Positions 1 to 32,417 of a stretch of DNA of 41,808 nucleotides are shown here, piece after piece. The DNA is from Candidatus Poseidonia sp. GTDB taxonomy: Archaea > Thermoplasmatota > Poseidoniia > Poseidoniales > Poseidoniaceae. A program made the position numbers and the translations under genes. Numbering within the stretch: position 1 is the first letter of the stretch; each line of letters starts with the position of its first letter. Below the pieces are notes generated by a model. It made no database searches. It had not been told where the DNA came from and saw nothing but the letters and a program-made list of their open reading frames with translations. The stretch covers positions 25,076-66,883 of the forward strand of contig JAURDA010000005.1 of NCBI GenBank assembly GCA_030828165.1, in the 5' to 3' direction.

Positions 1-66
1 TTTGCGCATCGTACGGGCGCGATGGACAAGGGAGTGAATCTGAGGAGACATCATCCCTTCCGACCC

Positions 67-74
67 TATTTGAA
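67..74 (+). promoter_or_regulatory. Candidate TATA box of the AddB-like gene
   Basis: The octamer TATTTGAA is centred 25.5 bases before an in-frame GTG at 96. The same kind of box occurs at almost identical spacing before five other genes in the window, which fits leaderless archaeal transcription. Bases 1-66 show no gene that I can support. Confidence 0.4.
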
Positions 75-95
75 TCCTCTCTTGGGTTGGCACCC

Positions 96-6900: not shown

Positions 6901-8821
6901 GACGATGGTTCACGGCATCGGCAAAGAGACCGGGCACGATGTTTCGGCCATGCAGCGACGGATGGTCGACATTCAAGGCTTGGAAAACAAAGGTCCCCAA
7001 GCCATCGCAAAAGCGGACGCTTCATCGGTCCAAATCATGACCATCCACGGCTCAAAGGGACTCCAAGCCCCCGTCGTGGTCGTTTCGGGCTTGTTCAGCG
7101 CAGGCATGGCCGATGCGAGCATGGCGGTGTCCGACAACGTGCTTGTCACCCCTCAGGTGGTGGCCGGTCGAATACAGCCGTGGCGGGCCCGGGAACGGCC
7201 TGCGGACGGTCTGTGGTCGTTTGCGACGGAGATGAACAAGGCCCAAGACAAAGCGGAACTGCGACGAAAATTCTACGTCGCCTTGACCCGGGTGAGGGAC
7301 CGGCTCATCATCACGGGTTCTCCCGGCAAGCAGTCCACCTTTGATGAGGAAACGGGAGCCCTTGCCGTTCGTCTTCAACCGGACCCTCGGACCATGGGCA
7401 AAATGCTCGTTGAAGGGTTGCGCAGGGCGGCATGGTGTGCGGGTGATGGGGCGGCTCCTTGGCTGAGTGAAGGCGAGGTTGATGCCGCTGACCTACCGTT
7501 GTTTACGCCTCTGAAAACCATGACACCGCTCGACCCCGCTCGTTTGCTTGACGAGGCTCCGTTGGGCGTTGACGGTGTGCGTGGTCTTCGGGTGTACCAT
7601 CATCCGAGGTGCTTTGACCCAACACCTCCGCGTTCGGCTCAGTTGCGTGCGCGTGAATTGGCGGTGCACCTGGCGACAGGCCCCCATCGGCCCGCCCCGT
7701 CCCCTCCCCGCTTGCAGGTGGTGGAAACCCTGCAGGGGGCGGCGCACCATTTGGATTCAACCTCAGCGTGCCAGCGGAGGTATTGGCTTGAGCACGTGAA
7801 CGGCTGGACGCCGGAACCCTTCCGCCTCCCGTCCTCGGAACTGGCCGAACATCGCGACGGGACGTGGCCCAAACCCACCGAATTCGGGTTGATGATGCAT
7901 CGCGTGATGGAAATAGGGTTGCAAAATCCGTTGAAGTTCGTTGAAGGTGCTCCTTCGTTGGGCCCGTCGTGGAAACACGCCTCCGAAGACGACTTGGCCT
8001 CGTCAACCACCGTCGCCCGTGTGATGAACGAATTTGGTTACGGTCTTGAGCAGGACGAAGGCACCGACCCCGCTCGGTGGAGGGACCGGTTGATGGATCT
8101 CGGCCGCCTCATCGATGATGGCGTGCTTGGGCGCTGGACGCAGGGCGAGGAACTCCACGGATGGACCCTTGAGGCCGTCCGAACCGAATTGCCTTTCTTC
8201 CACCGAGAGCGGTTGGCGATGGACGATGCGACGATGCGCGAACTGGTCCCGCTCACCACCGGTTCGTCGGACGTGCAAGCCGTCAACATGGATTTCAGCG
8301 GCCGAGCCGATTTGGTGCTGGCGCTCGCCAACAGCGACGGTGAAGGGGCGCTCCAAGTGGTCGACCTGAAAACCAAAGGATGCCTGAAGGATTTCAACGC
8401 CCAAGACGCCGCCTCCGGTCACCCTCTTCAAGCCGTTCCTCCGACCGAACTCTCGCTCTTCCCCGAATCGGAGGCCGAGGAGGAACTTCTGGCCGAACAT
8501 GAACTCCAACTGACGCTGTATTCCGTGGCCTTGGAAGCGATGGAGGAAGCGAAACCGGAGAACGAACGTCGCCGAGTGTTACCACCGGCCTTGCTCGTGG
8601 GGGCGAACGGGCGCCTGATTCAACTCACGCAAACGAGGTTTGAGCTTGCGAAAGACGTTCTCCGCAACCACCTCAAGTGGCGCACTGCGGTTCATCTCAA
8701 CCCCGCTTTGCCCGTGCCCCCTCGATTGGGGGCGGGGGCGAAGGCGTGCACGATGTGTCCGTTTTACCGCGGCGATTTGCGCCGCTGCGGTCCCGAGGGG
8801 GAGCCGTTGGGTTTCAGATGA
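3905..8821 (+). CDS. AddA/RecB-like UvrD-family helicase with C-terminal nuclease
   Basis: ATP-dependent superfamily 1A helicase with a RecB-type nuclease, the presumed motor partner of the preceding gene. Motifs in order: Walker A AGAGTGKT (~residues 22-29), Walker B IIDEYQDTN (~577), VGDMKQSIYRFR (~619), TSNHRT (~725), MTIHGSKGLQAP (~1043) and YVALTRVRDRL (~1123). The C-terminal PD-(D/E)XK domain has FSGRADLV, VVDLKTKG (D1487, K1489) and a following ELQLTLYS helix. It also has C1289 and a terminal C1615-x2-C1618-x9-C1628, again an iron-sulfur-like arrangement. In B. subtilis AddAB the cluster is described only in AddB, so a second cysteine set is unusual. At 1638 residues it is longer than typical AddA (~1230), with insertions between the early helicase motifs. 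The gene ends in an 8-base convergent overlap with the methyltransferase gene. Confidence 0.88.
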   Translation: MIQFNTSQRLGLDLDRHIALDAGAGTGKTTVMAERYVQHLMAAQQRATLVTPLGPRTPLSGHGALRTPKRERTELSHWPGLLPSEVAAITFTRKSAAELKERIRHRLSLSRAAPLAHDDDEGIHDPRLRSEGDVEMLLSALDEAPISTIDAFLNQLVLPFIDLVALYPSNQQVTEERAPLMLRDTLHAVWRIRSVDDAREAGVLNHHDAFLESRTRLVARLGGQDQAEVVLNGLLGRSLFVEQSHRSMIQQAQDMGLGWNGRGPAPIEVLLNTIAAPVADILPEFVESVAHQLRGWLDEFAPYHASCVTPAETETVLTRYNHLRRVLSSPPSDEPGEQLSWMWQVFLGLATGSGLVKSQCTFFPRGHLPSGDEWPSGLLTKSNVRGMPGADKDALYARAAARLPPLLERLNSTDGTLIRLLARSAFLLSPGTGFDGMPLDCPLRLDPLEEPLPLEPTDREMYVTSSLQTEVLSDLMVLHTGCQQILARRKSLDGMHDFDDMQRFAADLLLARCPDVCRHLYPPEVIDVLDGLGDEPWSDVHVSRALTMLNDRPQLQEDLQRRFSILSELRRQYRAFIIDEYQDTNPSHYRLLARLWGRRRRESDDPERPFGPWDPTVCIVGDMKQSIYRFRQAEVSVMRRAVAAIRAFNAMEFGDTRLDHLRHPGCGRDPRPVGAGGETGSFSNEHTGEGSAPYTHVPFADEDDTTFPSITGERLVRRTEGHVDLTSNHRTRHDLMETMNDMFDEVFHPRHHELPGDWHAEAQRLRPARLLEDPGVFEWLLPIAGPVTAAPLDLDEAVDAFQDPSATSVQREHQLLADRLHALLQHAPTRVWDATNAGWRTVGEQGPEVRPQDIMILVNSRKHLPDLVERLRGRNIPVMADRQGLLLAQPVVQPLMALLALMARPSARSSAFVLARSPVIGMTERQVQNALVATPAGQSLWPALLEHAPTEPVRALLNDLHRLIQWGAVYDAFDAVLDRSDLLVAYPDDAQRQFAEAWLTMVHGIGKETGHDVSAMQRRMVDIQGLENKGPQAIAKADASSVQIMTIHGSKGLQAPVVVVSGLFSAGMADASMAVSDNVLVTPQVVAGRIQPWRARERPADGLWSFATEMNKAQDKAELRRKFYVALTRVRDRLIITGSPGKQSTFDEETGALAVRLQPDPRTMGKMLVEGLRRAAWCAGDGAAPWLSEGEVDAADLPLFTPLKTMTPLDPARLLDEAPLGVDGVRGLRVYHHPRCFDPTPPRSAQLRARELAVHLATGPHRPAPSPPRLQVVETLQGAAHHLDSTSACQRRYWLEHVNGWTPEPFRLPSSELAEHRDGTWPKPTEFGLMMHRVMEIGLQNPLKFVEGAPSLGPSWKHASEDDLASSTTVARVMNEFGYGLEQDEGTDPARWRDRLMDLGRLIDDGVLGRWTQGEELHGWTLEAVRTELPFFHRERLAMDDATMRELVPLTTGSSDVQAVNMDFSGRADLVLALANSDGEGALQVVDLKTKGCLKDFNAQDAASGHPLQAVPPTELSLFPESEAEEELLAEHELQLTLYSVALEAMEEAKPENERRRVLPPALLVGANGRLIQLTQTRFELAKDVLRNHLKWRTAVHLNPALPVPPRLGAGAKACTMCPFYRGDLRRCGPEGEPLGFR

Positions 8822-14882: not shown

Positions 14883-16868
14883 ATGGAAACGGTTTTCCTC
14901 GCTGGCGCATTCATGATTGGCGCCCTGTTTTTGCTCTCTCAATCCCTCGCCAAGGGTGTTGGCTCGGTGGGCGGTGCGCTCCAACACATCGGCCTGTTCG
15001 TGCTCCGAAAGAACCCGCCCGGCCTCGTTGACATTTTCGACGACAAAGACGGCAGCGGTTCCCGCACCTGGATGAATTTCGGTATGCTCTGGTTGGTCTT
15101 CTCCAGCGTCCTCGGCTTCCTATGGGGGTGGCACAATTACGACCCTTCCGCCCTGGATTCCCTCGCCAGCGTTGGCTGGTCCTACGATGACGGTTCGTCG
15201 CTGAAAGACGCCACCGTGAACTTCCTGAGCATTGCTTTGCTCTACGGACTGGTCGGAAGTGCCATGGTCGGCGCTGCACGCAACGGCAACGGCCGCCTCG
15301 CCAGCGAGGCCAACGCCTCGATGGTGGCCGTCCTGCTCTCTGCGGTTCTTCTCGCCACGTACATCCTACCGTTCATCTTCGGATTTTTGGACCTCGATAC
15401 CTCTGAAAACCCCTACAGAACCTTCTTGCTCAGCCTTGAAACGCTGGTCGTCGGGATGTTGTTGCTTCCGGTGTTCATCAACGTCCTCATCACGGTCGCC
15501 CAACGGGGAGACCAGGACCTCCAAACGAGCGCATGGTTCCTCATCATGGGGCTTGCAGCCTACATCCTCTCGATGTTTTTCGTCTTCTTCGGCGAACTTG
15601 CCGATGCGACCCAAGTCGTGTGGTTTGGCGAGCGCGTTGCCCTTGGTTGGGCCCCGTTGGCCTTCATGCTGGCCGTCGGTTACCACGTGATTCCCATGGC
15701 TTCCAAGCAACCCATTTGGTCGGGTTCGATGCGGACGGCCAGCATGTTCCTGTTGTTCGTGACCGTTCCTCCGTTCTTCATGACCGAGGCTTCAGCAGGC
15801 AACTTCGTGACCAACCTCGGTGCCATCCTGCTGACCCTCGGCATGTTGCCTCTCTTTGCGGCATCCATCAACCTCGTCATGACCGGAGCCAGCGGTTTGA
15901 GTGCGGTGGTCAAGCACCCCGGAGCCATGGCGGGCGTCATGGCGTTCATGGTGCTCCCCTTCTTTGCCATTGGCGGGTACTTCACCGCCATGGACACCTT
16001 CGTTGGAACCGGTGAACTGGGCTCCATGGCTCACGCCGTCGACCTCGGCATGCTCTTCACGGTCGGGGGCTTGCTCGTCCTTGCCGGCGTTTTCACCAAC
16101 TACCCTCTGGCGATTGGAAAGCCGTTGGCCACGCCCTCGAGCGCTCATCTGGCTTCGTGGCTGGTGTTGGTGGGCGGTGTCGCTTCAACGCTGATCTATC
16201 TGACGGGCGAGTTCACCGCCAATGCGGTTGCAGCCTCTGAAATCGAGGACGTTGTGGCCAACAACGGCGGCTTCTACTTGACGGGTGCTGCGCTGTTCTA
16301 CTTGCTCGGCATCGGAACCATTTTTGCGACCTTGGTCACCATCCGAACCGGCATTTCCTCCACCGGACGTACCGTGGACGCAACCGTGGTCTCGGACGTC
16401 TCCTCCTACACGTTGGTCGCCGGTTCTTCCACCACCATCCGAGCGCTCATCGGGCGCGGGGTCGGCGTTGATACCGAACTTCTCGTGAGCGAAGCATCGG
16501 AAGCCGAAGGCGGCTCCACCATCATCGGTGTTGATGCAGCCCTCCACAACGACGAGATCACCGAATTCCCCGCCACGACGGCCCAAGCCATGGTGGACTT
16601 CGTCCAATACCTCGTGGACACGGACCAATCGGTGTTCGACCTCTTCCGAAGCATGGACCTTGACGACTCCGGCAAAATTGACAGTCGGGAATTTCTGGCG
16701 GCCCTCGAAGCTTCCAACATCACGGCCTTGTCCAGCATTGAAGCAGCGGACCTCGTGGAGAGCATGGACCTTGACGGTGACGGCGAGTTGAACCTCCCGG
16801 AACTTGACATCGCCATCGCTCAAGTCAAGCGTGACCACAACATCACCGCCTCGATAGAAGAGGAGTGA
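14883..16868 (+). CDS. Heme-copper-oxidase-fold (CcoN-like) membrane protein lacking metal ligands, with EF-hands
   Basis: A polytopic membrane protein (661 residues, about 12 helices in residues 1-490) with a soluble tail. Compared with remembered cbb3 subunit I (CcoN) motifs it aligns over a long stretch. WYGHN corresponds to WFGER (247-251), YYFVPK-x4-RPVYS to GYHVIPMASKQPIWS (267-281), GPHH to VPPFF (295-299), GGMINGLMTLSG to AASINLVMTGASG, and SHYTDWTIGHVH to AHAVDLGMLFTV (383-394). At each ligand position the histidine is gone: Thr111 for the first low-spin heme ligand, Glu250 and Phe298-Phe299 for copper, Phe392 and Val394 for the hemes. It therefore probably binds neither heme nor copper. 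The tail has two canonical EF-hand loops, D592-E603 and D629-E640, predicting calcium binding. Upstream GGTGTGATG is a ribosome-binding site. The fold call is by eye; the EF-hands are clear. Confidence 0.65.
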   Translation: METVFLAGAFMIGALFLLSQSLAKGVGSVGGALQHIGLFVLRKNPPGLVDIFDDKDGSGSRTWMNFGMLWLVFSSVLGFLWGWHNYDPSALDSLASVGWSYDDGSSLKDATVNFLSIALLYGLVGSAMVGAARNGNGRLASEANASMVAVLLSAVLLATYILPFIFGFLDLDTSENPYRTFLLSLETLVVGMLLLPVFINVLITVAQRGDQDLQTSAWFLIMGLAAYILSMFFVFFGELADATQVVWFGERVALGWAPLAFMLAVGYHVIPMASKQPIWSGSMRTASMFLLFVTVPPFFMTEASAGNFVTNLGAILLTLGMLPLFAASINLVMTGASGLSAVVKHPGAMAGVMAFMVLPFFAIGGYFTAMDTFVGTGELGSMAHAVDLGMLFTVGGLLVLAGVFTNYPLAIGKPLATPSSAHLASWLVLVGGVASTLIYLTGEFTANAVAASEIEDVVANNGGFYLTGAALFYLLGIGTIFATLVTIRTGISSTGRTVDATVVSDVSSYTLVAGSSTTIRALIGRGVGVDTELLVSEASEAEGGSTIIGVDAALHNDEITEFPATTAQAMVDFVQYLVDTDQSVFDLFRSMDLDDSGKIDSREFLAALEASNITALSSIEAADLVESMDLDGDGELNLPELDIAIAQVKRDHNITASIEEE

Positions 16869-18596: not shown

Positions 18597-20840
18597 TCAA
18601 CCATCCGATTGAATTTCAAGAAAGGCCTTCAACAGCATCTTTCCGTTTGGTGATCCGACCGATTCTGGATGGACTTGCAGCCCGTGAATCGGCAAGGTGG
18701 GATGCTGCAATCCCATGACATGCCCCGTTTCCTTTTCCGTGGCGTTCGTCATCAACACGGCTAGACCTGGTCGCTCTGCCACCAGCGAGTTGTACCTCGT
18801 TAAGACCATCCCCTCGGTGCTGACCCCAGCAAAAAGTCCCGTTCGGTCGTGCTCGACGAGGACGGGAACGCCGTGCACCGGTCCGTCGGGTGCAGCAGCG
18901 ACGTACCATCCATCGGCTTGAGCCAAGGCCTGATGGCCCAAACAAACGCCGAGAACGGGCACGTTGAGTTGACCGGCCAAGGCGTGATGCGCCAAGGCGA
19001 GGGTGAGCGTCCCGTCGTCAGGTCGTCCCGGGCCCGGACCGAGCACGATGTGGGTCGGTTGGAGGCGGTCGAGCAGGTCGTTGAGGGCGACCGGGTCAAC
19101 GTACGGCTCCATGCTGGGCGAGCGCCCCTCGAGCATCGTCACGTTGTGGCCAAGTTGGGCAAAGGCATCCGCGATGTTCAGCGAAAACGAGTCAAGGTTG
19201 TCGACGAATAATACCCCCGTGGGGTGTTCTTGACCAAGCGCTTGGTTCAACGATTGGATGATTCCTTTTGCCTCGGGAACGGTTGAGGGCGCTTCTGCAT
19301 GGATTGGATGGATGCTCAGCGATGCTTGGGGCAAGCGGGTGTGTTCGTTTCGCATCCATCCTGCCGCCACGCGAAGGGCTGAGCCTTTCCACGCCGCCTC
19401 TTCCACCTCTTTGATGGGGTCGGAGGCGATGGTGATGCCTCCACCTGCTCCAACCGACGCCATCCATTGGTTTCCTTTCCGGTGCGCCTCGAGGGTTCGG
19501 ATCAGGATGTTCCACGCACATGCTCCCGAGTGGACGTCGATGTACCCTACCGAACCGGTCCAATAGGACCTTGGCATCTGTTCCAGTTCGTCGATGACCG
19601 CACACACCATCGTGCGAGGGCAGCCCGTGATGGAGCCGCCGGGGAACACGGCTTGCAGGGCTTCGCCCGACCACAGGTCCTCGCCCAATTGCGAGGTGAT
19701 GTGGCTGACCAAATGCTGAACATTGGCGTACGCCTCCACGTCAAATCGGCTCACGACAACGCTTCCGGGTTGAGATATTCGGGTCAGGTCGTTGCGCATC
19801 AAGTCCACGAGCATGCGGTGTTCCGCCCGTTCTTTTTGGTCCTGCAACATGGTGTTCCGCAACGCTTCTCGCTCCGCATCGCTTTCCCCTTGGGGGCAGG
19901 TGCCTTTGATCGGTGAAGTTGACAAACGCCCCTCCTGACAGGTGAGCAAGGATTCGGGCGAGGAGCTCGCCAAAGCAAAGCCGAGGTCTTCGGCTTCAAC
20001 GTATGCCGAATACGGCGCAGGGTTGGTGGCGAGCAGGCGTTGAAAGACGGCATACGGGTCGTCGATTTCGCCCTGCCAGTGTTTTCCGATGTTGACCTGG
20101 TACACCTGGCCGTTGACGATGCCTGCACGAACCGCTTCGATGTTGTCCTGATGCGTTTCGTCGGTGTGCGTGACCACCTCCCGATGGTGCGTGGCTTTGG
20201 GCAACGACTCCAAATGCCCTTGCTTGGCGATGGCCGCCTCGGCTTTTGAGCACCAAACCTCGTCGCTTCCGAACACCGTCGCCTCTCCCGTCCCGTTCTC
20301 CACCACCACGCCTTCGGTGACGCACCAAAGCACGGCGAGAAGAGCGCCTTCGGCGGGTGGGTGTTGCAGTTGCAACGGCTGGGTCCACTGCACCAAATCG
20401 TACGCCAATCCACCGCACCAGAACGGGGCTTTGGGGAACGAGGAGGCGTGGGGGTGCAGGAAGGGGTCCGTTGGCGTCTGGGCCCTCAATTTTTTCATCA
20501 AATCGCCAAGGTCGGTCGCCCGCAGGGTGACGCGGTGGTACCACGAGCCGTGCTTCCATTCTTCGACTTCGGCTTGCAGGAGCGGCTTCTCTTCGACCAG
20601 CCGGATTTCTCCGGCGAGCGGAGAATGGGGTTGAGCCGAAGGCATCGTTTCACGGGAGGGCTGACGAACCGTCACCCGCTGCTTCGTCGGGCCGCTGAGC
20701 AACGACCACCGGGCCAAATGGGAAGCAGGGCCTGCCGAGACCAGCATCGTACGGTCGGGCGATCCGAAACGAAGGGCAGGAGCCCCCAACACCCCTTCTT
20801 CGGTCAAGCGCTGAGCGATGGCGATGATGTCATGCGCCAC
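18597..20840 (-). CDS. pabBA: Aminodeoxychorismate synthase, PabB-PabA fusion
   Basis: A bifunctional enzyme of about 747 residues that makes 4-amino-4-deoxychorismate from chorismate and glutamine. Residues ~1-500 are the chorismate-binding component. The motif PIKGT (310-314), with Lys312, is diagnostic of PabB; anthranilate synthase has PIAGT. Other family motifs are KERAEHRMLVDLMRNDL, FPGGSITGCPRTM and GSVGYIDVHSG. Residues ~540-747 are a class I glutaminase with GPGPGRPDD, GVCLGHQAL (nucleophile Cys633) and HPES (His724, Glu726). The domain order, synthase first, is opposite to plant and fungal PabA-PabB fusions. The GTG at 20840 is preferred, with AGGAAC just upstream; a longer upstream reading frame exists but overlaps pabC. 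The gene overlaps the pabC stop by 11 bases. Confidence 0.88.
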   Translation of the reverse strand: MAHDIIAIAQRLTEEGVLGAPALRFGSPDRTMLVSAGPASHLARWSLLSGPTKQRVTVRQPSRETMPSAQPHSPLAGEIRLVEEKPLLQAEVEEWKHGSWYHRVTLRATDLGDLMKKLRAQTPTDPFLHPHASSFPKAPFWCGGLAYDLVQWTQPLQLQHPPAEGALLAVLWCVTEGVVVENGTGEATVFGSDEVWCSKAEAAIAKQGHLESLPKATHHREVVTHTDETHQDNIEAVRAGIVNGQVYQVNIGKHWQGEIDDPYAVFQRLLATNPAPYSAYVEAEDLGFALASSSPESLLTCQEGRLSTSPIKGTCPQGESDAEREALRNTMLQDQKERAEHRMLVDLMRNDLTRISQPGSVVVSRFDVEAYANVQHLVSHITSQLGEDLWSGEALQAVFPGGSITGCPRTMVCAVIDELEQMPRSYWTGSVGYIDVHSGACAWNILIRTLEAHRKGNQWMASVGAGGGITIASDPIKEVEEAAWKGSALRVAAGWMRNEHTRLPQASLSIHPIHAEAPSTVPEAKGIIQSLNQALGQEHPTGVLFVDNLDSFSLNIADAFAQLGHNVTMLEGRSPSMEPYVDPVALNDLLDRLQPTHIVLGPGPGRPDDGTLTLALAHHALAGQLNVPVLGVCLGHQALAQADGWYVAAAPDGPVHGVPVLVEHDRTGLFAGVSTEGMVLTRYNSLVAERPGLAVLMTNATEKETGHVMGLQHPTLPIHGLQVHPESVGSPNGKMLLKAFLEIQSDG

Positions 20841-21579
20841 GTTCCTGCCCCATTGTGGACCACGTGGCCTTGTTGGTAAAATGTTCCCGCAACACGGCTT
20901 GACATGTTTGCGAGAGCGCCCTTGAATCTCCCAACGTTTCGCCATCGATGGTGTCAATTCTGCAGGCTCCCATGCCCGTGCCGACCACGACCATTTCAGC
21001 GCACCTCGCCACCGTTCGTTCGTTGAGACGGCCTCGGACCACGGGGAAGCCCAAGGCGGGCAAGGCGGCTTCAACCACGGCAGCAGCAATGCCTTCAACG
21101 CCGCCGTCGCCCACCGGTGCCATCCACACCGTTCCGTCTTCATCCAGCACCATGGGCGTTGCTCGGTCAGCGTCAACGATGGCGTGGTCGTGGACGAGCA
21201 ACGCCACGTCGCAACCTGCCTGTTCGGCGGCCTCTTTGGCTTCGTTGTACGCCTCCCATTGTCCGTGTTTGCACCCGTTCGTGCGCTCGTTCCATCTTGG
21301 GGCAGGATAACTGATGGCGTCGACGTCTTCGTTGTGGACGCCCAACGGCCGCTGGGTTACGGTCCAGGCTTCGGTTTCGGGCTGAAAGCCGATTCGAACC
21401 AACGTCTCCCCCTTTCCGTCGCCTTGCACCTCAAGCGAAGGCGGTTCGGGCAGGGCGATGCGCAGGCGCTTTGCATGCGCTTGGAGGCGATTCAGGTGAG
21501 CCGGCCAATCCGCCACGTTGCCCTTTGCGTCGGCCCGCACGGTGGTGAACACCTCGCTGCGGGGACCTTGGACGCCCAT
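20830..21579 (-). CDS. pabC: Aminodeoxychorismate lyase-like class IV PLP enzyme
   Basis: Probable 4-amino-4-deoxychorismate lyase, releasing pyruvate to give 4-aminobenzoate for folate. The fold is that of class IV PLP enzymes (BCAT/D-amino-acid transaminase). SEVFTTVRA lies at the N-terminus, and the PLP lysine is probably Lys104 in CKHGQWEAYNEAKEAAEQAG. The section GVEGIAAAVVEAALPALG resembles the LPGITR-type helix. The usual E-x-(S/T)-x-x-N region is poorly conserved here (VDADRATPMVL), so the enzyme is divergent. Function is supported mainly by the overlapping pabBA gene. At 249 residues it is slightly shorter than E. coli PabC (269). It starts 9 bases after the stop of the giant surface-protein gene; GAGGCGACCTC lies immediately upstream. 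Confidence 0.72.
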   Translation of the reverse strand: MGVQGPRSEVFTTVRADAKGNVADWPAHLNRLQAHAKRLRIALPEPPSLEVQGDGKGETLVRIGFQPETEAWTVTQRPLGVHNEDVDAISYPAPRWNERTNGCKHGQWEAYNEAKEAAEQAGCDVALLVHDHAIVDADRATPMVLDEDGTVWMAPVGDGGVEGIAAAVVEAALPALGFPVVRGRLNERTVARCAEMVVVGTGMGACRIDTIDGETLGDSRALSQTCQAVLREHFTNKATWSTMGQERGA

Positions 21580-21588
21580 GAGGTCGCC

Positions 21589-24500
21589 TCACAACAGGTC
21601 GTCGAGGAAGGACGTGTCAATTTGCGGCATCTTCGGCGTTGCCGGTGTCTCATCGAGCAAACCATCGAGCAGGGACGGGTCAACCTGTGGACTCAAAACA
21701 GGTTGCTGTTGCTGGTAGACCTCGCGTCCGGTCGACGCGGCTCGGATTTGATCGGCGGCGGCAAAGATGTCGTTGGCCTGCTGCGTCGGTACGCCTTGGG
21801 GCGGAGCCGGAGCGGCCATGGATGGAGGCGCCGGTGGGACATCGCTCCAGTCCTTGTCTTGGATGCCCCACGTCGCTTCTTGAAGTTCCCATCCCTTGGC
21901 TTTCCGGGACGTAGCGCCTCGAGAGCGGACGACCAGAACAAGGAGCAAGAGGATGATGATGACCATACCAGCAGCGATGATGTTGGGGCCCGTCAGGAGC
22001 GAGTCGAGCGAGAGTTGTCCGGTCTCGTCGGAGGTTTCGCCCACCTGTTCATCGGTTTGAAGGGGGTCAACCTTGACCGATTCCACGGTTGATTTTGCCA
22101 CCGTATCGTCGTACGGAACGACGCCAACGAACCACGCCGAGGCGGTGTCAAGTTCACCGAAGATTTCGGCCGTGATGAGGAAGGTGTTGTCCGACACGGT
22201 TTGGCCGACCATCGTTGCGTCTTCGGTTGAAACAAACATTTCGTCGCTGATGTAAACATGGTAGCCCCGTACATTGGCGTCGATCGAGTGCTGCCATTCA
22301 ACAAGGATGTTCGTGTCCTCAAACCACGCTGCTTCTACGTTTTCAATGTCCGGCAAGTAGATCCCCGCATCGGTCACTCCTTCATCGGTCGATGCTGCGG
22401 AAACCATGGTGAGTTGAGTGGTGTGGGCGTTGCCCGAGGTGTCGACCGCCACAACGGCGACCCAGATCTCTTGGCCGGGCACGACGGGGGCGTCGCCTGC
22501 AACGAGATCGATGACGACGGGGAACGCAGGATTTCTGCCCAAGGTGGCGACGGAAGGAAGTTGAGCGGTGACGGCACCAGCAAAATCGTAGGTTGCTGCA
22601 TGGACCTCGTAGAAGGCCACGTCGCCGGAGGTTGAGGGTTCAAAGTCCAGCAAGAGAGCCGTACCGTCGTCGTTGGGACGGTCTCGCAAGTCAAGTTCCG
22701 TGACCCGGTCAGGCGCCGTGATGTCGTTTTGGTTATCGATGGGGGTCACGGTGACCTGCGTCAAGTTCGTGAGATGGACGTTGCCTTTGAGGTCGTGAAC
22801 CGTGACGGCGACGTACAGGTCCACATCGGGCTGAATGAGGCCGAGGGTGCCGTCGGTCAACTCGCCGCCATCGGGAACGTAGAGGGCGGTGGAAAGGGTC
22901 AACTCGATGGGGTTTGTTCGCTCGTCAATCCACTGCTTGTTGAACGAAAAGCAACCGCAAGCATCGGGGTCGGTGCCGAAGGCTGCGTACGCCGATGCAA
23001 GGTTCGAGACGGGACGATTGGACACCCAAACGGTGTAGGATGCAAAGTCGTCAACCGTCGATGGCTCCCAAACCACGTCGATGGCGGTTCCGTCGTCGTC
23101 GGGGTGGTCAAAGGCCATCAAGGACGTGATTCGGGGTGGTGTGCTGCCTTGGCCGACGATGTTTTGGAACGGTGTTGCCGTAACGAGCGTCACTTCGTCC
23201 GTGTTCCCGTTGAGCCAGACATCGTATGCGACGACGCCGAAGGTGTAGACTTGGCCGTCGATGAGCGGGACGCCGTCCATGGAACTGATGACCGCTTCGG
23301 TTTCATCGCATGGGTTGACGACGGCGGCTTGCGAAAAGCCGTCAACACCGGACCGTTCACCGTTTTCCAGCACATGGTCGCCCTGCTTGATCAGAACGGT
23401 GTAAAAGGCGCAGTCCTCCGCATCGCTCTGGTTCCACGTGACCAGCAAACGTCCTCCTTCGTCGTCGGGAATGTCGCTCGCAGCGGTTCCCTCAACCGGT
23501 TCAGGGGGCTCGTTGTCATTGAGTTCACCGGTTGGGACGATGGGTCCGACGACCGTCACGTTGGCGAGGTTCTCTTGACCGGCTTCATCAACGCATGTCA
23601 AGCCGATCCAGACGGGCACGGCGGGGGTGAGCGAGAGAACCGAGAGGTTGCCCTCGTTCGGTGCGATGGAGGTGTAGGGGGTCCGTCCATAGGCGTCCGT
23701 CATCGGCGTGGTGGCCACGTAGATGTTGGTACGCGACAGGTCAAGCGCTGTGCAACGAGCCCACTCGAGCTCCACATCGCCGTCATCGCCCGAACTGCCA
23801 AGCGCCTGTGCAGAGGCCCACAGGGGTGCGCCGGGAATTTCGTCGCTGGGGCTTGCCGGGCCGAGAGCGTCGGCCACTTCGCCCCATCGTCCATCGCTGT
23901 ACTCGACCACGACGGTGGCGTAATAGTCCACGCCGTCTTGAAGCGGTTGACCGTTTGCGGTCTCGACATCTGCCGAGAGTCGACTGTGCAGGGAGATGGC
24001 TTTGTCAGGGCTTTGTCCCTGCAGCATCAATTCGGTGGGTGAAGTGCTCCACGGCCCTTCGTTGACGAAGATGAGGTAGCGAGCGAAGTCTTCGTCGTGA
24101 ACCAGCGACCAGGAGGCCGTGAGCGTGCTTCCGCCGTCGTCGGGCCGATCCAGCAACCCCTCCATGGCGACGGGCGTGTCCGAGCGAACGTAATCGTAGG
24201 TGATGCGCGCTTCAAGCGAACCGTTGGCTGGTGAATACAAGCGAAGGGAAACATGCCGCGTGTTGTTGAAGAGCTGGCCGTTGTCCACGGCGTCCTGCAG
24301 ATTCAAACCGAGCGCAGGGTCCCCGCTGATGTTCAGGGTGACGTCGTACTCGAGCGAGACGGCCTTGGCCCAAACGGCAGCGCCCTCGACGGGCGAGGTC
24401 ATGACCACGGGCACGTTTTGGAAGAGGAGGTTGTGAACGCCTGGCGTTCCTTGAGCGTTGTCAAGTTGGAACGGTGCGGCGACGTCGACGAGTTGGACGG

Positions 24501-27500
24501 GCATGCCGGGGTGGGTCATGTTGCTCACGTCTAAGCCCCCGCCGTTGTTCATGGCTCGCAGCGTCAACGGCAGGGCCCGACGCATGCTGATTTCTTGCAC
24601 CGGCGTGTACTGTCGGTTGTTGGCCCAGCCTTGGAGGCCGTCCTCGGTGATGATCCAAATCGTATCCGCACCCAAGGTTCCACCGGTGACGCTGCCCGGA
24701 CGGAAGGTTTGCAGGGAAGCGTGCGCGAACGTTCTGGCTTCGACCAGCATGCCGTCGTTTTGACCGCCCAGGGCCAAAATTTGGTCGCCGTTGCTGAACA
24801 TGCTGTGGACGGGGTACTGCACTTGAGTGAAGCGAACCCCGTCTTCAAAATCACCGCTGGAGGCGTTCCAGTGGGTCAGCGGCCAGCCGTCCGTTGCGAT
24901 GTGCAGGCCCCACCAATCGCTGGTGAGTGAGGTGACGGTGTTGGACGGAAGTTGGTCGAAGCGGTGGGTTGACGTGACCTGCTGGGTGGTGGCGTCAACG
25001 ATGCTCACGCCGGGTCGCTCTGCGCCCCGTCCGTCGTGGCTGACGAGAATGGAGACCGAGCCTGAACTGCTCGTGTGTTTGACCAAACCCCAAGCGGATT
25101 GCCCCATCAAACCGTTGGCGGTCGTCATGGTGGTGCCGTTCCCCGTGGAGGCGTCCCAAACGAACACGCCGGAAGGTGTGGCCATGTAGATGTCGTCGCC
25201 GACCGAGACCACGTCTTCCACGATGTCGTTGGGCAATCCGTTGCCTGCGGTTATGGAATCCATCCAATCGTTGGTGCTGTAATTCCACCGGCCGATGCCG
25301 CCGTTGGTGGCGATGTAGAGAACGTCCGTCGTGGAGGTGAACCCGTTGACGATGTTGGACGGGAGGCCAGCGATGAGGCGACCGTTCCCGAATTGCCCGG
25401 TGGACGGGTCAAACATTTGCACGCCCGGTGGACTTCCACCGTCACCTGCGAGGCCGATCACGTATTCGCCGTTGTAGAGGTGCATCGTGTCGAACTTCCC
25501 GTGCAGTGAGCCCGAAATGGCCGTGATGGACTGGGTTCGGAGGTTGAGTTTGTACAACCCGTCGGGGTTTGAGGCGATGTACAAATCGCCCCCGTTGAGC
25601 ATGAGGTCGTTGGCGACGGTGTTGCCCGGAAGAGTCCACCCGTACGTCCACTCAACGCTGCCGTTGGGCAGGAAGATGCCTTGGAGCAGTCCGGTGCCGC
25701 TCCCTCCGAAATTTCCAGCGCCGCCCGTTTGTCCGCCTCCGGTTGCGACCCAGATGTGGGTGCTGTTGGCGGTCATGGCGGAAACTTGGCCGCTGACCAG
25801 TCCGGGGAGGTCGACGATCTTCTGCATGCCGTTTGACGACAGGCTCGAAACGTGGCTGTAACCGGAGGCGCCGCCGGCTTGACCGATGAGCCATTGCGAT
25901 GAACCGCTCTGCCATTGGAAGGAGGTCACGGAGGACCCACCGCTGTACACCTGAGCCTGAAGCGCTGTGGCGCCGTTGGCGACCAAGGCGGAGTAGCCTC
26001 CACCAATGACGTTGGTTCCAGAAAGGCCGATGCCGTGTCCAACGAGGAGCTGCGTGCCGGAATGGGCGAGACCGTCGTACCAAACGCGGTCGCTGGGCAG
26101 GTTGTGGCTTGAGGTGGTGAGGCTGGAAAGGAAGGCTCCCGAAACGTAACTGTAGCGGGAAACGGGTTGGTTGTCGTTGTAGTAGCCGATGTACAGGGTG
26201 TCCTGGGCGTCGCAGGTGACGGATGCGGGCCCAATACCGTCGAGTTGCGTTCTGGCGAGCGGCGTGAGGGTTCCGTTTTGCAGGTCGATACGGGCGATGC
26301 CGCCGTTACCGTTGTACATGGCGACGTTGAGCACGCCCCCGCACATTTCCATCGAAATCGGATAGCCGTCCGGAACGTTGGCCAGAGAGTCTGCCGGGTA
26401 GGTCGTCCATGCTCCGGAGGCACTGAGGTGGGAAATAATCCCCTCTTGGAAGCCGCCGAAGTTGCTGAAGCGAGCGCCACCGATCGCGAGGTCGTTCCCG
26501 TCGGTCCACAGTTCGAAGAAACGGCTCCCAGCGTTGGTGGGCAGGCCGTTGCCCGCTTCCCACTTTGAGTTCCACTGGTTGGTGGTTTCGTTGTATCGGA
26601 GCACGCCGTCTTCGGTTGCAAACAAGGTTTCACCGTCGTATTCAACGATGCCTCGAATCGGGAGGTCAAACGAGGTCCACGAGTTCACGAGGGAACGGTT
26701 GGCGTCGTAAAGGTCCAGTTTCAATTCGCCCCACGCCACCCAAGTGTTGCCGGCGGACGATTCGTAGGCGGTGACGCGGTCGATGGAGCCCGTTGGAAGC
26801 ACGTTTGGAGCGAACGAGGTGTTCACCGTGTCCCAGCGAGCGATGCCACCCGACCCGTCGGCGTTCCACCACTGGCCCGAGACCACGCTCACCAGCAACT
26901 CGTTGCCGACGATTTCCATGGACGTGATGTCGCCCCCGTTTTCGCCGACTTGTGCCCCGATGTCGAGGTTGCTGAGCGCCGTGACGTTGGCGACGTCAAG
27001 GCGACTGACTTCATCGCTTGCCGTGTTGGCGTGATAGTAGAGGATGTTGTTGTGAATCACCATTTCGTGGGGCGGTCCAGAAGCGGTGTAGAGGTTGCTG
27101 TTGCGTTCGATGTCAAAGGCTTCAAAGCCGTTCGTGACGTTGATCAGTTGGAAACCGTCGTCGCCGCCAACCCAAAGCAGATTGGGGCGGATATCGGCGA
27201 CCAAACCCGTCACGTCGTCGTTTCCACCGTCGAGAACACCGTTGTCTTCGTTGAACGGCGTTAACCACTGATTGGAGGTGATGTTGTAGCGCAGCACGCC
27301 CAAGCCTTCCGTGCCGATGTAGGCGATGTCTCCCATGATCTCCACCACGGCGTTTCCTGTTTGGGTTCCTTCGCCCCAGTTCGTGTCGTGTTGGAAATTC
27401 GATTTGGTGATGAGTCCAACGCCGTCGTTGGTGCCCCCATAGACGTAGGATGCATCCACACCCACGCTGTAGGTCGCCCAGTTGGGCATGCCGTCGTAGA

Positions 27501-29901
27501 CGTTTTGACAATCGTTGACGGCCATGGTGGAAAGGGTGTATTTGCAAACGCCGATGTTGGTTCCCGCATACAAATCCCCTCCGTCGATGACGAAATCAAA
27601 GAACTGGAAGGGTCGGGTCTGCCACGTGCTTCCTTGGCCGAAATTTGTGGCTTGGGTCCCGTCCCATTTGCGGGCGCCTTGCTGCGTTCCGATGTACAGA
27701 TTTGAGCCGTCGGATTCCAAGGCGTAGATTTGGTTTGAGGGCAGAACACCGCCTTGGTTTGACGCCAAAAGCGGTGACAGAATTTCCCCGGTGCTCATGT
27801 CCTTGCGAACCACGCCGTACCCTTGCAGGCCGAGGTGCAGGACATCACCGACCATGGCCACGGGAGCATTGTTGACGCCGTTGATGCCCGTGGAGCCCCA
27901 AGGCTCGAGCCAGGTGTCGTTGGCGATGTTGTAGCGCAACACGCCCTTGTCCTCGGTGGCCACGTACGCATTTCCGCCGAAAAGAGCCACATCACCAAGG
28001 AACGAAGAGGGCAAGCCGTTTGCGGTGTCGTACGCCGTGCATGCACCGGCCTGTTGGCCCGTACGTTGGAAGTGAACGAACACCCCACTGTCAAGACTCA
28101 TCACGACGTTGTTCACATCGACGGCCAAACCCACGATTTCCGAGGTTGAAGGGTAGCACCCCGAGGTTCCGTCGTAGGTGGTGAGCACTTGGCCGGCTTG
28201 ACTCATTTCTTTGACCGCTGGTTGGGCCCATGTGGCTGCAAACAAGGAGGTGGCTCCTGTGGAGGAAGGTGCCGTCACCAAGGCCACAGCATCGTCGTTT
28301 AAGCCGGTCCATGGCGTCATCCAAACGGCATTCCCGATGTCGTAGCGCAAGATTCCAGAGGCGTCGCCCGTCGAGATGTAGAGGATGTTGTCAAGTTCAA
28401 CGATGTCGATCATTTCCGTGGTTGCTGGTCCGCTTGCGAGGACGATGTTGCCCTCGAAGAAGGGGGCTTGGCCGGGGCTAAGGTGGGCCAAGGTTCCGCT
28501 TGCATCGTCGACCAGAAGTGCGGGTGTTGATGGCGACCCAACCCCTGCTCCATCCCACAGAAGCAGGGACGCACCGATTCCGGCGAGGTTGAGGTTTGCG
28601 AGGTCGTAGTTGGTGGAAAACACCCCGTTGGAGACGTTGTAGGTATGAACCGAATCTCCGTTGAGGATGTAGAGAACGCTCCCTACTCGTTGAATACCAG
28701 CGATGTCGTCGCTGTCCAGCCAATTGGCGGAGGTCCACGTGGAAAGCCAAAACCCAGCGGCGTAATCGAAGCGTCCGACGCCTGCGTCGGTGGAACCGAG
28801 GAGCAACTGGTTTCCGGAGGGCAGGATGTGGACCACGTTATCGGAGTGGAGGGAGTTGGCGGTTGACCAGGTGGAAAGCGCCTGAGCGTTGGCGGTGTTG
28901 TACCGCAACACGCCCGCGCCTTCAATGGAGGCGTACACGATGCCGTTGACTTCGGCCATGGCCAGAGCCTGCGAGGGGGCGTCGCTGGAGGTGGACACCA
29001 CGCGCTGCTTCCAAGCACCACCGTCCCACTCGTACAATCCCGTCCCGCCGGCTGCGAACACATCGCCGGCCCCGGTCATCAGGAAGCGGTCGACCTCGCC
29101 GTCGCCCAATGCAGCGAGGGTGCTGCTGTCGACGAGCGACATGGCTCGGAAAGTCCCATCGCCAAGCAGCAAATGAAGCACGGCGTTGGTGTCGTCAACC
29201 ACGATGTCCAACACCCCGCCTTCCGACTCGAAGTCGTAGGCGTCAACGATGACGGGGTCGTTGTTGGCGTTGAGCAGGAGGAGTTTTGTGGCGGTAGCCA
29301 AGTAGAGCAAGCCCGATGCATCGTCCACTTCGGCGTCGTTGATTTCAAACGTCACGGGCCTGAGCGAGACGAGCGGATCGGAAGGCGACAACACTTCGAT
29401 GATCATTTCGGTGATTTCGGCGTCCGACGGCAAATCCCATCCGGCACCTGAGTTGCTGTTGGGGTTCAAGCGACCGGTGTAGGTTGAGCCGCTTGCAAAA
29501 TTGTCGGCCTGCCCGAGCGTGCCCAATCCCCGCCAATCAAAGAGCGAGGTACCCATGCCGTTGACGGTGAGGTGCGGCTGGTTGATGGTCAACCCGTCTT
29601 CACCACTTGCTCGGATTTCGAGGGTCACGTTGGAGAGAACGGCGCCCGGAGCAAAGGAAAGGTTCCAGTCGGCCGTGGCTTGTTGGCCGGTGAGCGGGTT
29701 GGCGCCCGATGCGTCGAGGCGAACCCACCCCGTGTCGTTGCTTCCCTCCAGCGGCCACGAGACGCCGCTGGGTTCGGCATGGGCCGAAACCGTGGACAAG
29801 GTCAACAACGGACTCATGGACATCAAGAGCATGAGGGCCACCATCGAAACGGCCTTTCGGCGCTTTTGCGAGTGGCCATGTGCCCGATTCGCCTTGTTCA
29901 T
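21589..29901 (-). CDS. Giant secreted beta-propeller/fibronectin-III surface protein with C-terminal anchor
   Basis: About 2770 residues. A signal peptide occupies ~1-42 (basic SQKRRK, then MVALMLLMSMSPLLTL, cleavage near SAHA-EP). Roughly residues 200-1800 are repeated blades of ~45-60 residues with motifs such as GVLRYN, NQWLTPF, LYIGT and GLPSN, like two-component-regulator (Reg_prop) propellers. Several propellers in series are likely. Residues ~1950-2600 hold four or more fibronectin-III-like modules, each announced by RPDDGGS, HPDDDGTA or RPNDDGTA. A single membrane helix (IIAAGMVIIILLLLVLVV) is followed by a 112-residue cytoplasmic tail rich in Pro and Gln. The tail ends with two related motifs, DPSLLDGLL and DTSFLDDLL. 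It is probably a cell-surface adhesin, sensor or polymer-binding protein. ATG 29901 is supported by the signal peptide and a TATA-like box 26.5 bases upstream; the reading frame extends further upstream without support. Confidence 0.88.
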   Translation of the reverse strand: MNKANRAHGHSQKRRKAVSMVALMLLMSMSPLLTLSTVSAHAEPSGVSWPLEGSNDTGWVRLDASGANPLTGQQATADWNLSFAPGAVLSNVTLEIRASGEDGLTINQPHLTVNGMGTSLFDWRGLGTLGQADNFASGSTYTGRLNPNSNSGAGWDLPSDAEITEMIIEVLSPSDPLVSLRPVTFEINDAEVDDASGLLYLATATKLLLLNANNDPVIVDAYDFESEGGVLDIVVDDTNAVLHLLLGDGTFRAMSLVDSSTLAALGDGEVDRFLMTGAGDVFAAGGTGLYEWDGGAWKQRVVSTSSDAPSQALAMAEVNGIVYASIEGAGVLRYNTANAQALSTWSTANSLHSDNVVHILPSGNQLLLGSTDAGVGRFDYAAGFWLSTWTSANWLDSDDIAGIQRVGSVLYILNGDSVHTYNVSNGVFSTNYDLANLNLAGIGASLLLWDGAGVGSPSTPALLVDDASGTLAHLSPGQAPFFEGNIVLASGPATTEMIDIVELDNILYISTGDASGILRYDIGNAVWMTPWTGLNDDAVALVTAPSSTGATSLFAATWAQPAVKEMSQAGQVLTTYDGTSGCYPSTSEIVGLAVDVNNVVMSLDSGVFVHFQRTGQQAGACTAYDTANGLPSSFLGDVALFGGNAYVATEDKGVLRYNIANDTWLEPWGSTGINGVNNAPVAMVGDVLHLGLQGYGVVRKDMSTGEILSPLLASNQGGVLPSNQIYALESDGSNLYIGTQQGARKWDGTQATNFGQGSTWQTRPFQFFDFVIDGGDLYAGTNIGVCKYTLSTMAVNDCQNVYDGMPNWATYSVGVDASYVYGGTNDGVGLITKSNFQHDTNWGEGTQTGNAVVEIMGDIAYIGTEGLGVLRYNITSNQWLTPFNEDNGVLDGGNDDVTGLVADIRPNLLWVGGDDGFQLINVTNGFEAFDIERNSNLYTASGPPHEMVIHNNILYYHANTASDEVSRLDVANVTALSNLDIGAQVGENGGDITSMEIVGNELLVSVVSGQWWNADGSGGIARWDTVNTSFAPNVLPTGSIDRVTAYESSAGNTWVAWGELKLDLYDANRSLVNSWTSFDLPIRGIVEYDGETLFATEDGVLRYNETTNQWNSKWEAGNGLPTNAGSRFFELWTDGNDLAIGGARFSNFGGFQEGIISHLSASGAWTTYPADSLANVPDGYPISMEMCGGVLNVAMYNGNGGIARIDLQNGTLTPLARTQLDGIGPASVTCDAQDTLYIGYYNDNQPVSRYSYVSGAFLSSLTTSSHNLPSDRVWYDGLAHSGTQLLVGHGIGLSGTNVIGGGYSALVANGATALQAQVYSGGSSVTSFQWQSGSSQWLIGQAGGASGYSHVSSLSSNGMQKIVDLPGLVSGQVSAMTANSTHIWVATGGGQTGGAGNFGGSGTGLLQGIFLPNGSVEWTYGWTLPGNTVANDLMLNGGDLYIASNPDGLYKLNLRTQSITAISGSLHGKFDTMHLYNGEYVIGLAGDGGSPPGVQMFDPSTGQFGNGRLIAGLPSNIVNGFTSTTDVLYIATNGGIGRWNYSTNDWMDSITAGNGLPNDIVEDVVSVGDDIYMATPSGVFVWDASTGNGTTMTTANGLMGQSAWGLVKHTSSSGSVSILVSHDGRGAERPGVSIVDATTQQVTSTHRFDQLPSNTVTSLTSDWWGLHIATDGWPLTHWNASSGDFEDGVRFTQVQYPVHSMFSNGDQILALGGQNDGMLVEARTFAHASLQTFRPGSVTGGTLGADTIWIITEDGLQGWANNRQYTPVQEISMRRALPLTLRAMNNGGGLDVSNMTHPGMPVQLVDVAAPFQLDNAQGTPGVHNLLFQNVPVVMTSPVEGAAVWAKAVSLEYDVTLNISGDPALGLNLQDAVDNGQLFNNTRHVSLRLYSPANGSLEARITYDYVRSDTPVAMEGLLDRPDDGGSTLTASWSLVHDEDFARYLIFVNEGPWSTSPTELMLQGQSPDKAISLHSRLSADVETANGQPLQDGVDYYATVVVEYSDGRWGEVADALGPASPSDEIPGAPLWASAQALGSSGDDGDVELEWARCTALDLSRTNIYVATTPMTDAYGRTPYTSIAPNEGNLSVLSLTPAVPVWIGLTCVDEAGQENLANVTVVGPIVPTGELNDNEPPEPVEGTAASDIPDDEGGRLLVTWNQSDAEDCAFYTVLIKQGDHVLENGERSGVDGFSQAAVVNPCDETEAVISSMDGVPLIDGQVYTFGVVAYDVWLNGNTDEVTLVTATPFQNIVGQGSTPPRITSLMAFDHPDDDGTAIDVVWEPSTVDDFASYTVWVSNRPVSNLASAYAAFGTDPDACGCFSFNKQWIDERTNPIELTLSTALYVPDGGELTDGTLGLIQPDVDLYVAVTVHDLKGNVHLTNLTQVTVTPIDNQNDITAPDRVTELDLRDRPNDDGTALLLDFEPSTSGDVAFYEVHAATYDFAGAVTAQLPSVATLGRNPAFPVVIDLVAGDAPVVPGQEIWVAVVAVDTSGNAHTTQLTMVSAASTDEGVTDAGIYLPDIENVEAAWFEDTNILVEWQHSIDANVRGYHVYISDEMFVSTEDATMVGQTVSDNTFLITAEIFGELDTASAWFVGVVPYDDTVAKSTVESVKVDPLQTDEQVGETSDETGQLSLDSLLTGPNIIAAGMVIIILLLLVLVVRSRGATSRKAKGWELQEATWGIQDKDWSDVPPAPPSMAAPAPPQGVPTQQANDIFAAADQIRAASTGREVYQQQQPVLSPQVDPSLLDGLLDETPATPKMPQIDTSFLDDLL

Positions 29902-29931: not shown

Positions 29932-30092
29932 ACAGGCCCTTGATTGATGGAACAATGATTCAGCGATTTGGGGACAAAACGGGTCCGTTTCGGTTCCGCC
30001 GTCGCCGGTTTTGCCTTGGATTGATGCCCGAACGGTCCGTTTCCGCACAACACTCAAACACCCCACCCTCTCCCATGGTGCCGGGACTTCGT

Positions 30093-32417
30093 ATGTCGTT
30101 GAACAAAAAGGACCGTCTGCTCCGCAAAGAGGCGCTTGAGTACCACGAAGCGGAACCAAAGGGGAAGATCAAGGTCGTTCCCACCAAACCCCATTCAACG
30201 GCTTACGAATTGAGCCTTGCCTACTCTCCTGGCGTGGCCTACCCCTGCCTTGAGATTGAAAAGCGTCCTGAGGACGCGTACCGGTACACCTCCAAAGGCA
30301 ACCTCGTTGCCGTGATCTCAAACGGGACGGCCGTGCTTGGCTTGGGCAACATCGGTGCGCTGGCGAGCAAGCCCGTGATGGAAGGCAAGGGCCTCTTGCT
30401 GAAGACCTTCGCCGGCATTGATGTGTTTGACATCGAGGTCGATACCGAAGACCCGGAGGAATTCATCAACACCGTGGTCAACATCTCGAAAACCTTTGGC
30501 GGCATCAATCTCGAAGACATCAAGGCGCCCGAGTGTTTTGAAATCGAGCGGCGAATTGCCGAAGCGACCGATATCCCGGTGATGCACGACGACCAACACG
30601 GGACCGCCATCATCTCCGCTGCGGCCCTCTTGAACGCAGCCGAACTCCAAGGGAAGGCCTTGGGCGACCTGAAGGTCGTGGTCATCGGCGCCGGAGCATC
30701 GGCCATCGCTTGTGCAAATCACTACGTTGCCGTTGGCGTTTCGATGGCCAACATCACCCTGGTCGACAGCCAAGGCATCGTGACCAAGGCTCGGTTGGAT
30801 GCCGGTGAACTGAACGAATACAAGGCGCCGTTCGCCCACGATCGGCCCGCCGGTGAACTTGCGGACGCCCTGAAAGGCGCTGACGTGATGCTCGGGCTTT
30901 CCCGGGGTGGTCTTGTCAGCGGCGAGATGGTCGCCAGCATGGCTGAGAAACCCATCATCTTCGCGCTCGCCAACCCCACGCCGGAAATCACGCCCGAAGA
31001 GGTGCTGAAGGTTCGCGAAGACGCGATCATCGCCACCGGGCGGTCGGATTATCCCAATCAAGTCAACAACGTGCTCGGATTCCCCTACATCTTCCGCGGC
31101 GCCCTTGACGTGCGGGCGAGGGACATCACGCAGAACATGAAAATGGCCGCTACCCGGGCGCTTGCAGCTCTGGCCAAAGAACCGGTTCCCGACTACATAT
31201 CGGCTGCTTACGACGGCGTAGTCATGCAATACGGGCCGGAATACATCATTCCCAAACCCTTTGATCGACGCGTGTTGATTTGGGAAGCTGCCGCCGTTGC
31301 GGAAGCGGCGATTGAGGAAGGCGTCGCTCGGGTAACGCCCGAGGAATTCAGCCTCGTTCGTTACCGGGAGGAATTGGAAGCACGCCTCGGCGAATCCTAC
31401 TCCGTCATGCGTCAAGTCATCAACCAGGTCAAGGGCAAAGGCAAACGCATCGTTTTCCCCGAAGGCGACAAAGAATCCGTGCTTCGGGCAGCGGCCCAAT
31501 TGGTCGAGCAAAACATCTGCTCTCCCATCTTGCTCGGGCCGGTCGACCGCATCGACCGCATGGTCGAGGAACTCGGTCTGAACTTCGCCTACGAAGCCTG
31601 CGACCCCCGCTATGACGAACGCCGAAAAACCGTCTACGCCAACGCTTTCTTCAAGCGACGTCAACGGAAGGGAACCACATGGCCCGACGCCGCTCGCCTG
31701 CTGAAAAGCCGACCCTACTTTGCGGCGCAAATGGTCCATTCAGGCGATGCTGACGGGTTTGTCGGCGGTGTGAGTCGGAATTACGCCGATGTGCTTCGGC
31801 CAACGCTGGAACTCATCGGCAAAGCGGACGACGCCCATTGCGTCATCGGCTGTTACATGATGAACATCAAGGGCCGGACCATCTTCCTCGCGGATGCGAC
31901 CGTGAACGTCTACCCCGACAGCCGAACGTTGGCTGAAATTGCCGTCCAAACCGCGAAGGTTGCACGCCGATTTGGTGTGGTCCCTCGGGTGGCGATGCTC
32001 TCGTTTTCCAACTTCGGGTCCACCCGCGCTCAGCGGAGCGAACGCATTGAAGATGCGGTCCAAATCGCCCGGACGCTCGACCCCACCTTGATGATCGACG
32101 GGCCGATGCAAAGCGACACGGCCCTCAATCCCGCGGTTCAGGAAGAATACCCGTTCATGGAACTCGTCGGTCCTGCCAACGTGTTGATTTTACCCAACCT
32201 CGCCTCAGCAAACATCGCTTACAAATTGCTTGAAGAGCTCGGCGATGCCGAGATGACGGGCCCCATCCTGGAGGGCATGGCTCACCCCGTGCAACTCGTC
32301 GCTCGCCAAGACGGTGTTCGCCACATCGTGAACATGGCCACCATCTGCACGGCCGATTCGCTTCGTAAGGCCAAGATTTGGGCCACGCTGACCCAAGGTC
32401 AGGACACGTCGTCGTAG
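30093..32417 (+). CDS. maeB: Malic enzyme with C-terminal phosphotransacetylase-like domain
   Basis: NAD(P)-dependent malic enzyme (malate to pyruvate, CO2 and reduced cofactor), MaeB type, 774 residues against 759 in E. coli. The malic domain has AYSPGVA with Tyr44, SKPVMEGK with Lys93, and metal ligands Glu141, Asp142 and Asp167 (MHDDQHGTA). The Rossmann nucleotide site is VVIGAGASAIA (~195). Residues ~430-770 resemble phosphotransacetylase (RIVFPEGDKESVLRAA, VGGVSRNYADVLRPTL). In bacterial MaeB this part is regulatory and binds acetyl-CoA rather than being an active transferase. ATG 30093 was chosen because it gives the standard N-terminus; ATG 30075 is possible, and earlier codons look non-coding. 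It links the TCA cycle to pyruvate. It converges on the next gene with a 19-base overlap. Confidence 0.93.
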   Translation: MSLNKKDRLLRKEALEYHEAEPKGKIKVVPTKPHSTAYELSLAYSPGVAYPCLEIEKRPEDAYRYTSKGNLVAVISNGTAVLGLGNIGALASKPVMEGKGLLLKTFAGIDVFDIEVDTEDPEEFINTVVNISKTFGGINLEDIKAPECFEIERRIAEATDIPVMHDDQHGTAIISAAALLNAAELQGKALGDLKVVVIGAGASAIACANHYVAVGVSMANITLVDSQGIVTKARLDAGELNEYKAPFAHDRPAGELADALKGADVMLGLSRGGLVSGEMVASMAEKPIIFALANPTPEITPEEVLKVREDAIIATGRSDYPNQVNNVLGFPYIFRGALDVRARDITQNMKMAATRALAALAKEPVPDYISAAYDGVVMQYGPEYIIPKPFDRRVLIWEAAAVAEAAIEEGVARVTPEEFSLVRYREELEARLGESYSVMRQVINQVKGKGKRIVFPEGDKESVLRAAAQLVEQNICSPILLGPVDRIDRMVEELGLNFAYEACDPRYDERRKTVYANAFFKRRQRKGTTWPDAARLLKSRPYFAAQMVHSGDADGFVGGVSRNYADVLRPTLELIGKADDAHCVIGCYMMNIKGRTIFLADATVNVYPDSRTLAEIAVQTAKVARRFGVVPRVAMLSFSNFGSTRAQRSERIEDAVQIARTLDPTLMIDGPMQSDTALNPAVQEEYPFMELVGPANVLILPNLASANIAYKLLEELGDAEMTGPILEGMAHPVQLVARQDGVRHIVNMATICTADSLRKAKIWATLTQGQDTSS

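Follow-up and report, generated by a model that had tools for sequence, protein, structure and literature searches.

The window, 41,808 nucleotides of DNA from a Poseidonia archaeon (Marine Group IIa), carries a single open reading frame of 2770 amino acids on the minus strand at 21589-29901, with its ATG at 29901 and its stop at 21589-21591; the plus-strand reading of this interval is packed with stops and was rejected. An earlier, sequence-only reading had described a 2770-residue protein ending in two similar short motifs, DPSLLDGLL and DTSFLDDLL, and both are present in the minus-strand frame. The features of the protein and its neighbours are collected in Table 1.

Table 1. Features of the giant protein and its flanking genes (positions in the window)
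Feature	Position	Strand	Basis and remarks
Signal peptide, residues 1-40	29782..29901	-	Positive n-region, hydrophobic 17-36, cut likely near VSA/HA (between A and H); sequence and hydropathy scan
N-terminal beta domain, residues ~48-178	29368..29760	-	Conserved (profile); low model confidence, pLDDT ~50
~35 propeller blades, residues ~187-1770	24592..29343	-	137 predicted strands; profile, Foldseek and Reg_prop matches
Linker domain, residues ~1775-1905	24187..24579	-	Low-confidence model, pLDDT 52-67
Six FN3-like modules, residues ~1910-2608	22078..24174	-	Sequence repeat spacing, strand pattern, fn3 matches
Single transmembrane helix, residues 2637-2660	21922..21993	-	Hydropathy; aligned in all homologs
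Juxtamembrane motif K-G-WELQEATWGIQ, residues 2669-2681	21859..21897	-	Core invariant in genus alignment
Variable P/Q/A-rich linker, residues 2682-2740, probably disordered	21682..21858	-	Lowest tail conservation
Upstream motif copy DPSLLDGLL, residues 2741-2749	21655..21681	-	In 6/11 Poseidoniaceae genera
Terminal peptide DTSFLDDLL-COOH, residues 2762-2770, putative docking	21592..21618	-	Most conserved 9-mer
Downstream neighbour: aminotransferase class IV (PabC-like), then fused PabB/PabA ORF	20830..21579	-	Pfam, conserved synteny
Divergent upstream neighbour: malic enzyme fused to phosphotransacetylase	29940..32417	+	Pfam, conserved synteny

A giant gene common to the order

In a search with a profile of residues 1990-2600, from which the tail is absent, 290 of the 319 genomes of the order and all 22 of its genera yield homologs, and the genomes that yield none fit incomplete assembly. 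The relatives all come from Poseidonia or from other archaea of Marine Group II; beyond the Poseidoniales, three more genera of the class gave no homolog. The gene is mostly single copy, with a second copy elsewhere in the genome of some Poseidoniaceae, and synteny places it at one locus in both families of the order: a divergent malic enzyme, the giant gene, the PabC-like aminotransferase and PabBA. In genera g4, g7, g8 and g19 (L177, L184, L187 and L179), a gene recognised by eye as pyruvate kinase sits immediately upstream of the giant gene and next to that for the malic enzyme. Since these neighbours are metabolic, the gene neighbourhood yields no candidate for a partner of the giant protein.

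Elsewhere in the window, a 661-residue polytopic membrane protein (14883-16868, plus strand) is oxidase-like by eye, has a C-terminal EF-hand pair (Pfam) and matches no oxidase model. Two adjacent open reading frames at 3-8821 (plus strand) form an AddB/AddA-like pair, a PD-(D/E)XK nuclease and a UvrD helicase plus nuclease, with cysteines close to the C terminus.

Neither Pfam nor NCBIfam gave a match to the whole giant protein, tail included, and we found no description of it in the literature on Marine Group II. It represents a new protein family, in which known domains are combined with a new conserved terminal peptide.

Propellers and FN3-like modules outside the cell

Alignments of 33 homologs served as input for two AlphaFold models (mean pLDDT 79, pTM 0.40-0.47), which place 137 strands in the region from residue 187 to residue 1783, equivalent to 34-35 four-stranded blades. 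The most natural interpretation of these blades is a tandem array of five seven-bladed propellers, a count that derives from secondary structure and not from closed rings. The assignment to this fold class is supported by hmmsearch profile matches to the ectodomain of the HTCS heparin sensor BT4663 (4a2l; E 1.2e-27 and 6.9e-24), by Reg_prop matches in 7 of 33 homologs and by PorZ_N matches in 6 of 33. Foldseek likewise returned BT4663, BT4673, BT3049, PorZ, ROS1 and LRP2, with TM-scores that are low over these whole multi-domain chains, and therefore speaks for the fold class and not for detailed likeness. The six FN3-like modules that follow were recognised by the repeat pattern DxPDDxGxxxxxxWxxSxxxDxxxYxVY together with their strand pattern, and 5 of 21 homologs have Pfam fn3 matches. 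The propeller blades and fibronectin-III modules proposed from the sequence alone are thus corroborated by structure prediction and by repeat analysis, respectively.

The closest known systems share parts of this plan. HTCS sensors (BT4663, 4a2l; BT4673, 3ott; BT3049, 3v9f) also combine tandem propellers of the Reg_prop kind outside, a membrane anchor and a conserved inside part. However, the giant protein is archaeal, with some 35 blades and six FN3-like modules, and its inside part is just a short tail ending in a peptide, where HTCS have a histidine kinase, receiver and DNA-binding domain. PorZ resembles it in its surface multi-propeller fold (Foldseek and PorZ_N matches), but does not combine a transmembrane helix with a cytoplasmic tail, and its function is tied to a Bacteroidetes secretion system. 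The eukaryotic receptors ROS1, Sevenless and LRP2 are likewise single-pass proteins with big extracellular propeller arrays (accompanied by FN3 in ROS1 and Sevenless) and a cytoplasmic tail; their propellers are of the YWTD type, however, ROS1 and Sevenless carry a tyrosine kinase, and the likeness is one of fold only. In our model of the giant protein, the outside part would be a chain of about five seven-bladed propellers borne on a stalk of six FN3-like modules, and the propellers may meet ligands or neighbouring surface molecules, their relatives among solved structures being glycan sensors and PorZ.

An alternative is a structural role, in which the protein would be an S-layer-like or lattice-forming component of the envelope and its tail would tie the coat to a cytoplasmic scaffold. 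Such a role would accord with a single-pass protein that has a long stalk and occurs in all genera of the order, mostly as a single copy. The combination of propellers and FN3 modules is receptor-like, however, and some species have paralogs, so that we regard a coat component as fairly unlikely.

A conserved peptide at the end of a variable tail

The residues R-S-R-G stand directly C-terminal of the transmembrane helix, and by the positive-inside rule the tail is therefore predicted to lie inside the cell, in agreement with the earlier proposal of one helix linking the ectodomain to a cytoplasmic tail. This tail runs for about 110 residues past the helix and ends in ...SPQVDPSLLDGLLDETPATPKMPQIDTSFLDDLL. 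Its two short motifs are separated by 12 residues, not the approximately 15 first estimated. It is extremely improbable that the helix is a cleaved sorting signal of the archaeosortase type, followed by a functionless tail: archaeosortase substrates (PGF/PEF-CTERM type) have their helix near the very C terminus with a few basic residues after it, whereas here about 110 residues follow the helix, and the last of them form the protein's most conserved peptide.

Among 31 representatives of less than 80% mutual identity, five of which (from the sister family, Thalassarchaeaceae) had been found via the motif itself, the C-terminal 9-mer ranks first of 2762 for conservation, with a mean pairwise identity of 0.98 compared with 0.42 for the whole protein. 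Both ELQEATWGI and DTSFLDDLL are invariant in the 16 sequences close to that of the window, and DTSFLDDLL ends all 23 orthologs with readable ends that were found by a whole-protein search, mostly in the genus of the window. The other Poseidoniaceae genera have DTSFLDDLL too, except that a g2 genome has DTSFLDELL and that the end reads SFLDDLLIP in a g6 genome, and several Poseidoniaceae orthologs keep the terminal peptide although the profile match stopped before it. It is the ortholog in G110 (L075) that, with this SFLDDLLIP ending, extends two residues beyond the motif. Paralogs within the same genomes, whose long QPVQP-type linkers are unrelated, end in D[VL]SFLD[DE]LL. The linker is almost free to vary while the terminal peptide stays.

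Homologs found through the ectodomain extend this comparison, 25 of the 27 being from the sister family. The terminal motif is kept as DxSF[LI]D[DE][LMAI][LI] in 17, is reduced to an LDD[LI]L-type core in 5, and is lost in the remaining 5, which come from Thalassarchaeaceae genera g13 and g18 and keep the ectodomain. Judged by their sequences, most Thalassarchaeaceae therefore keep the motif in this form, and its loss in g13 and g18 suggests an interaction that has changed or that not every genus requires. Two to three extra, acidic residues follow the motif in g17 and g22; since residues follow the motif in these genera and in G110, a free terminal carboxylate is not needed. Tails of genus g14 (L102, L104 and L105) have an EF-hand-like stretch, DENNDRYLDAIE, immediately before the terminal motif.

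The last ten codons have 64 different DNA spellings in 74 genes and use all six leucine codons, which shows that selection acts on the peptide and not on the DNA, as it might on the ribosome-binding site of the next gene. The sequence-only reading had proposed a duplicated motif pair, of which the terminal copy stands and the upstream copy does not hold generally. An LLxxL-type peptide does occur at a fixed place 23-27 residues before the end in g1, g2, g5, g6, g7 and g8, and beats composition shuffles in each genus that has it (P ~0.01-0.07). However, this upstream copy is absent from g3, g4, g9 and g11 and from the g5 paralog examined, so the functional unit would be the terminal copy. Several sister-family tails have acidic repeats of the DLDDMADDL type in place of the upstream copy. 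The juxtamembrane motif takes the form W(D/E)xQA(S/A/T)TWG in paralogs and has diverged in the sister family. By sequence, what is conserved as a unit is a single helix-capable peptide at the terminus, together with the juxtamembrane WELQEATWGI motif.

Across 14 genomes, F[LI][DE][DE][LMI][LI] followed by a stop is limited to the giant gene and its paralog, save for one chance-like FLEEIL in G190 (matches ending in TGG, which is not a stop, were set aside). The tail motif was sought in other surface proteins of these genomes, as the sequence-only reading had suggested, and is not shared by them; the terminal peptide is therefore not a general tag of the lineage. This bears on the alternative that the protein is purely an adhesin, whose C-terminal peptide acts in delivery, topology or turnover with no downstream output. 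Conserved C-terminal peptides can indeed serve as quality-control or localisation tags. A trafficking tag of a general kind should be shared, however, whereas this peptide is confined to one family in the 14 genomes and, in g17 and g22, accepts another two to three residues after it, and we therefore consider a pure adhesin unlikely.

Proposed docking of the tail and its candidate partners

An S-x-x-D capping box, together with hydrophobic side chains at positions 4, 5, 8 and 9, gives the terminal peptide a pattern typical of short amphipathic helices, and D-x-S-F-[LI]-D-[DE]-L-L could accordingly form an N-capped amphipathic helix of two turns. The variable linker would fit the role of a tether. 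Taken together, the helix-like pattern and the variable linker make docking the best reading, and the docking role first suggested for the tail gains support, at the sequence level, from protein-level selection and from conservation of the terminal peptide in orthologs, paralogs and most of the sister family. In our model, one helix spans the membrane, the nine-residue peptide is presented inside the cell on the juxtamembrane motif and a flexible linker, and this peptide would dock in the groove of a cytoplasmic or membrane-peripheral partner. As the protein has no catalytic domain, output or anchorage must come from that partner.

One specific form of docking would have the peptide bind a CheY-like receiver, linking binding events outside to a response-regulator output. 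The FliM peptide EIDALL is a CheY binder (PMC9126983), and it resembles the terminal peptide, an acidic-leucine sequence that may likewise be helix-capable, in its L/I-D-x-L-L core (I-D-A-L-L in FliM, L-D-D-L-L here). Furthermore, all five sampled genomes, drawn from both families, encode next to ftsY a receiver protein that has a membrane anchor at its C terminus, and this membrane-tethered receiver is a weak lead to the partner. These receivers (G000:C19:22104-22433, L192; also L193-L196) are 220-250 residues long and have, between the receiver domain and the C-terminal transmembrane anchor, a P-rich linker that contains a conserved P(A/G)LGLxDLDELYPE-like stretch (APGLEDLDELYPE in most). 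However, the resemblance to FliM spans five residues only, and the FliM peptide sits in a motor protein whereas that of the giant protein is terminal in a surface protein. Archaeal CheY contacts its known partner CheF via another surface, the Poseidoniales are reported to be without identifiable chemotaxis genes (PMC6461757), and the receiver of G278 (one of the five) has lost its first acidic residue while the giant protein of the same genome keeps SFLDDML. Signalling from the tail to a receiver is thus quite improbable.

Two further candidates were rejected. Mimicry of the FtsZ tail does not agree with the endings of FtsZ itself, which are NRxIEFVN or F[QH]RFD/FTRLD, and the archaellum is an implausible partner given that g15, g16 and g21 keep the motif and have no archaellin, while g17 and g22 have archaellin and an extended motif. 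A search of the tail against solved structures gave no match.

Alongside the architecture, the topology signals, the conservation of and selection on the peptide and its restriction to one family in the sampled genomes, all of which are observed, we infer the binding, the helix and the role. The giant protein probably serves at the surface as a receptor or an anchor, its tethered tail docking in a predicted cytoplasmic partner. We more tentatively propose that it may constitute a new archaeal transmembrane linkage, in which the only coupling of a giant propeller receptor to the cytoplasm is a nine-residue helix on a tether, which recruits a partner dedicated to it.

The uncultured Marine Group II archaea rank with the most abundant archaea in surface waters of the ocean, yet how they sense particles or hold on to them is, to our knowledge, not understood. 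The giant protein spans all genera of the order, yet no Pfam or NCBIfam model matches it. Its terminal peptide offers a nine-residue bait for the cytoplasmic partner, which makes the putative connection from outside to inside directly testable.
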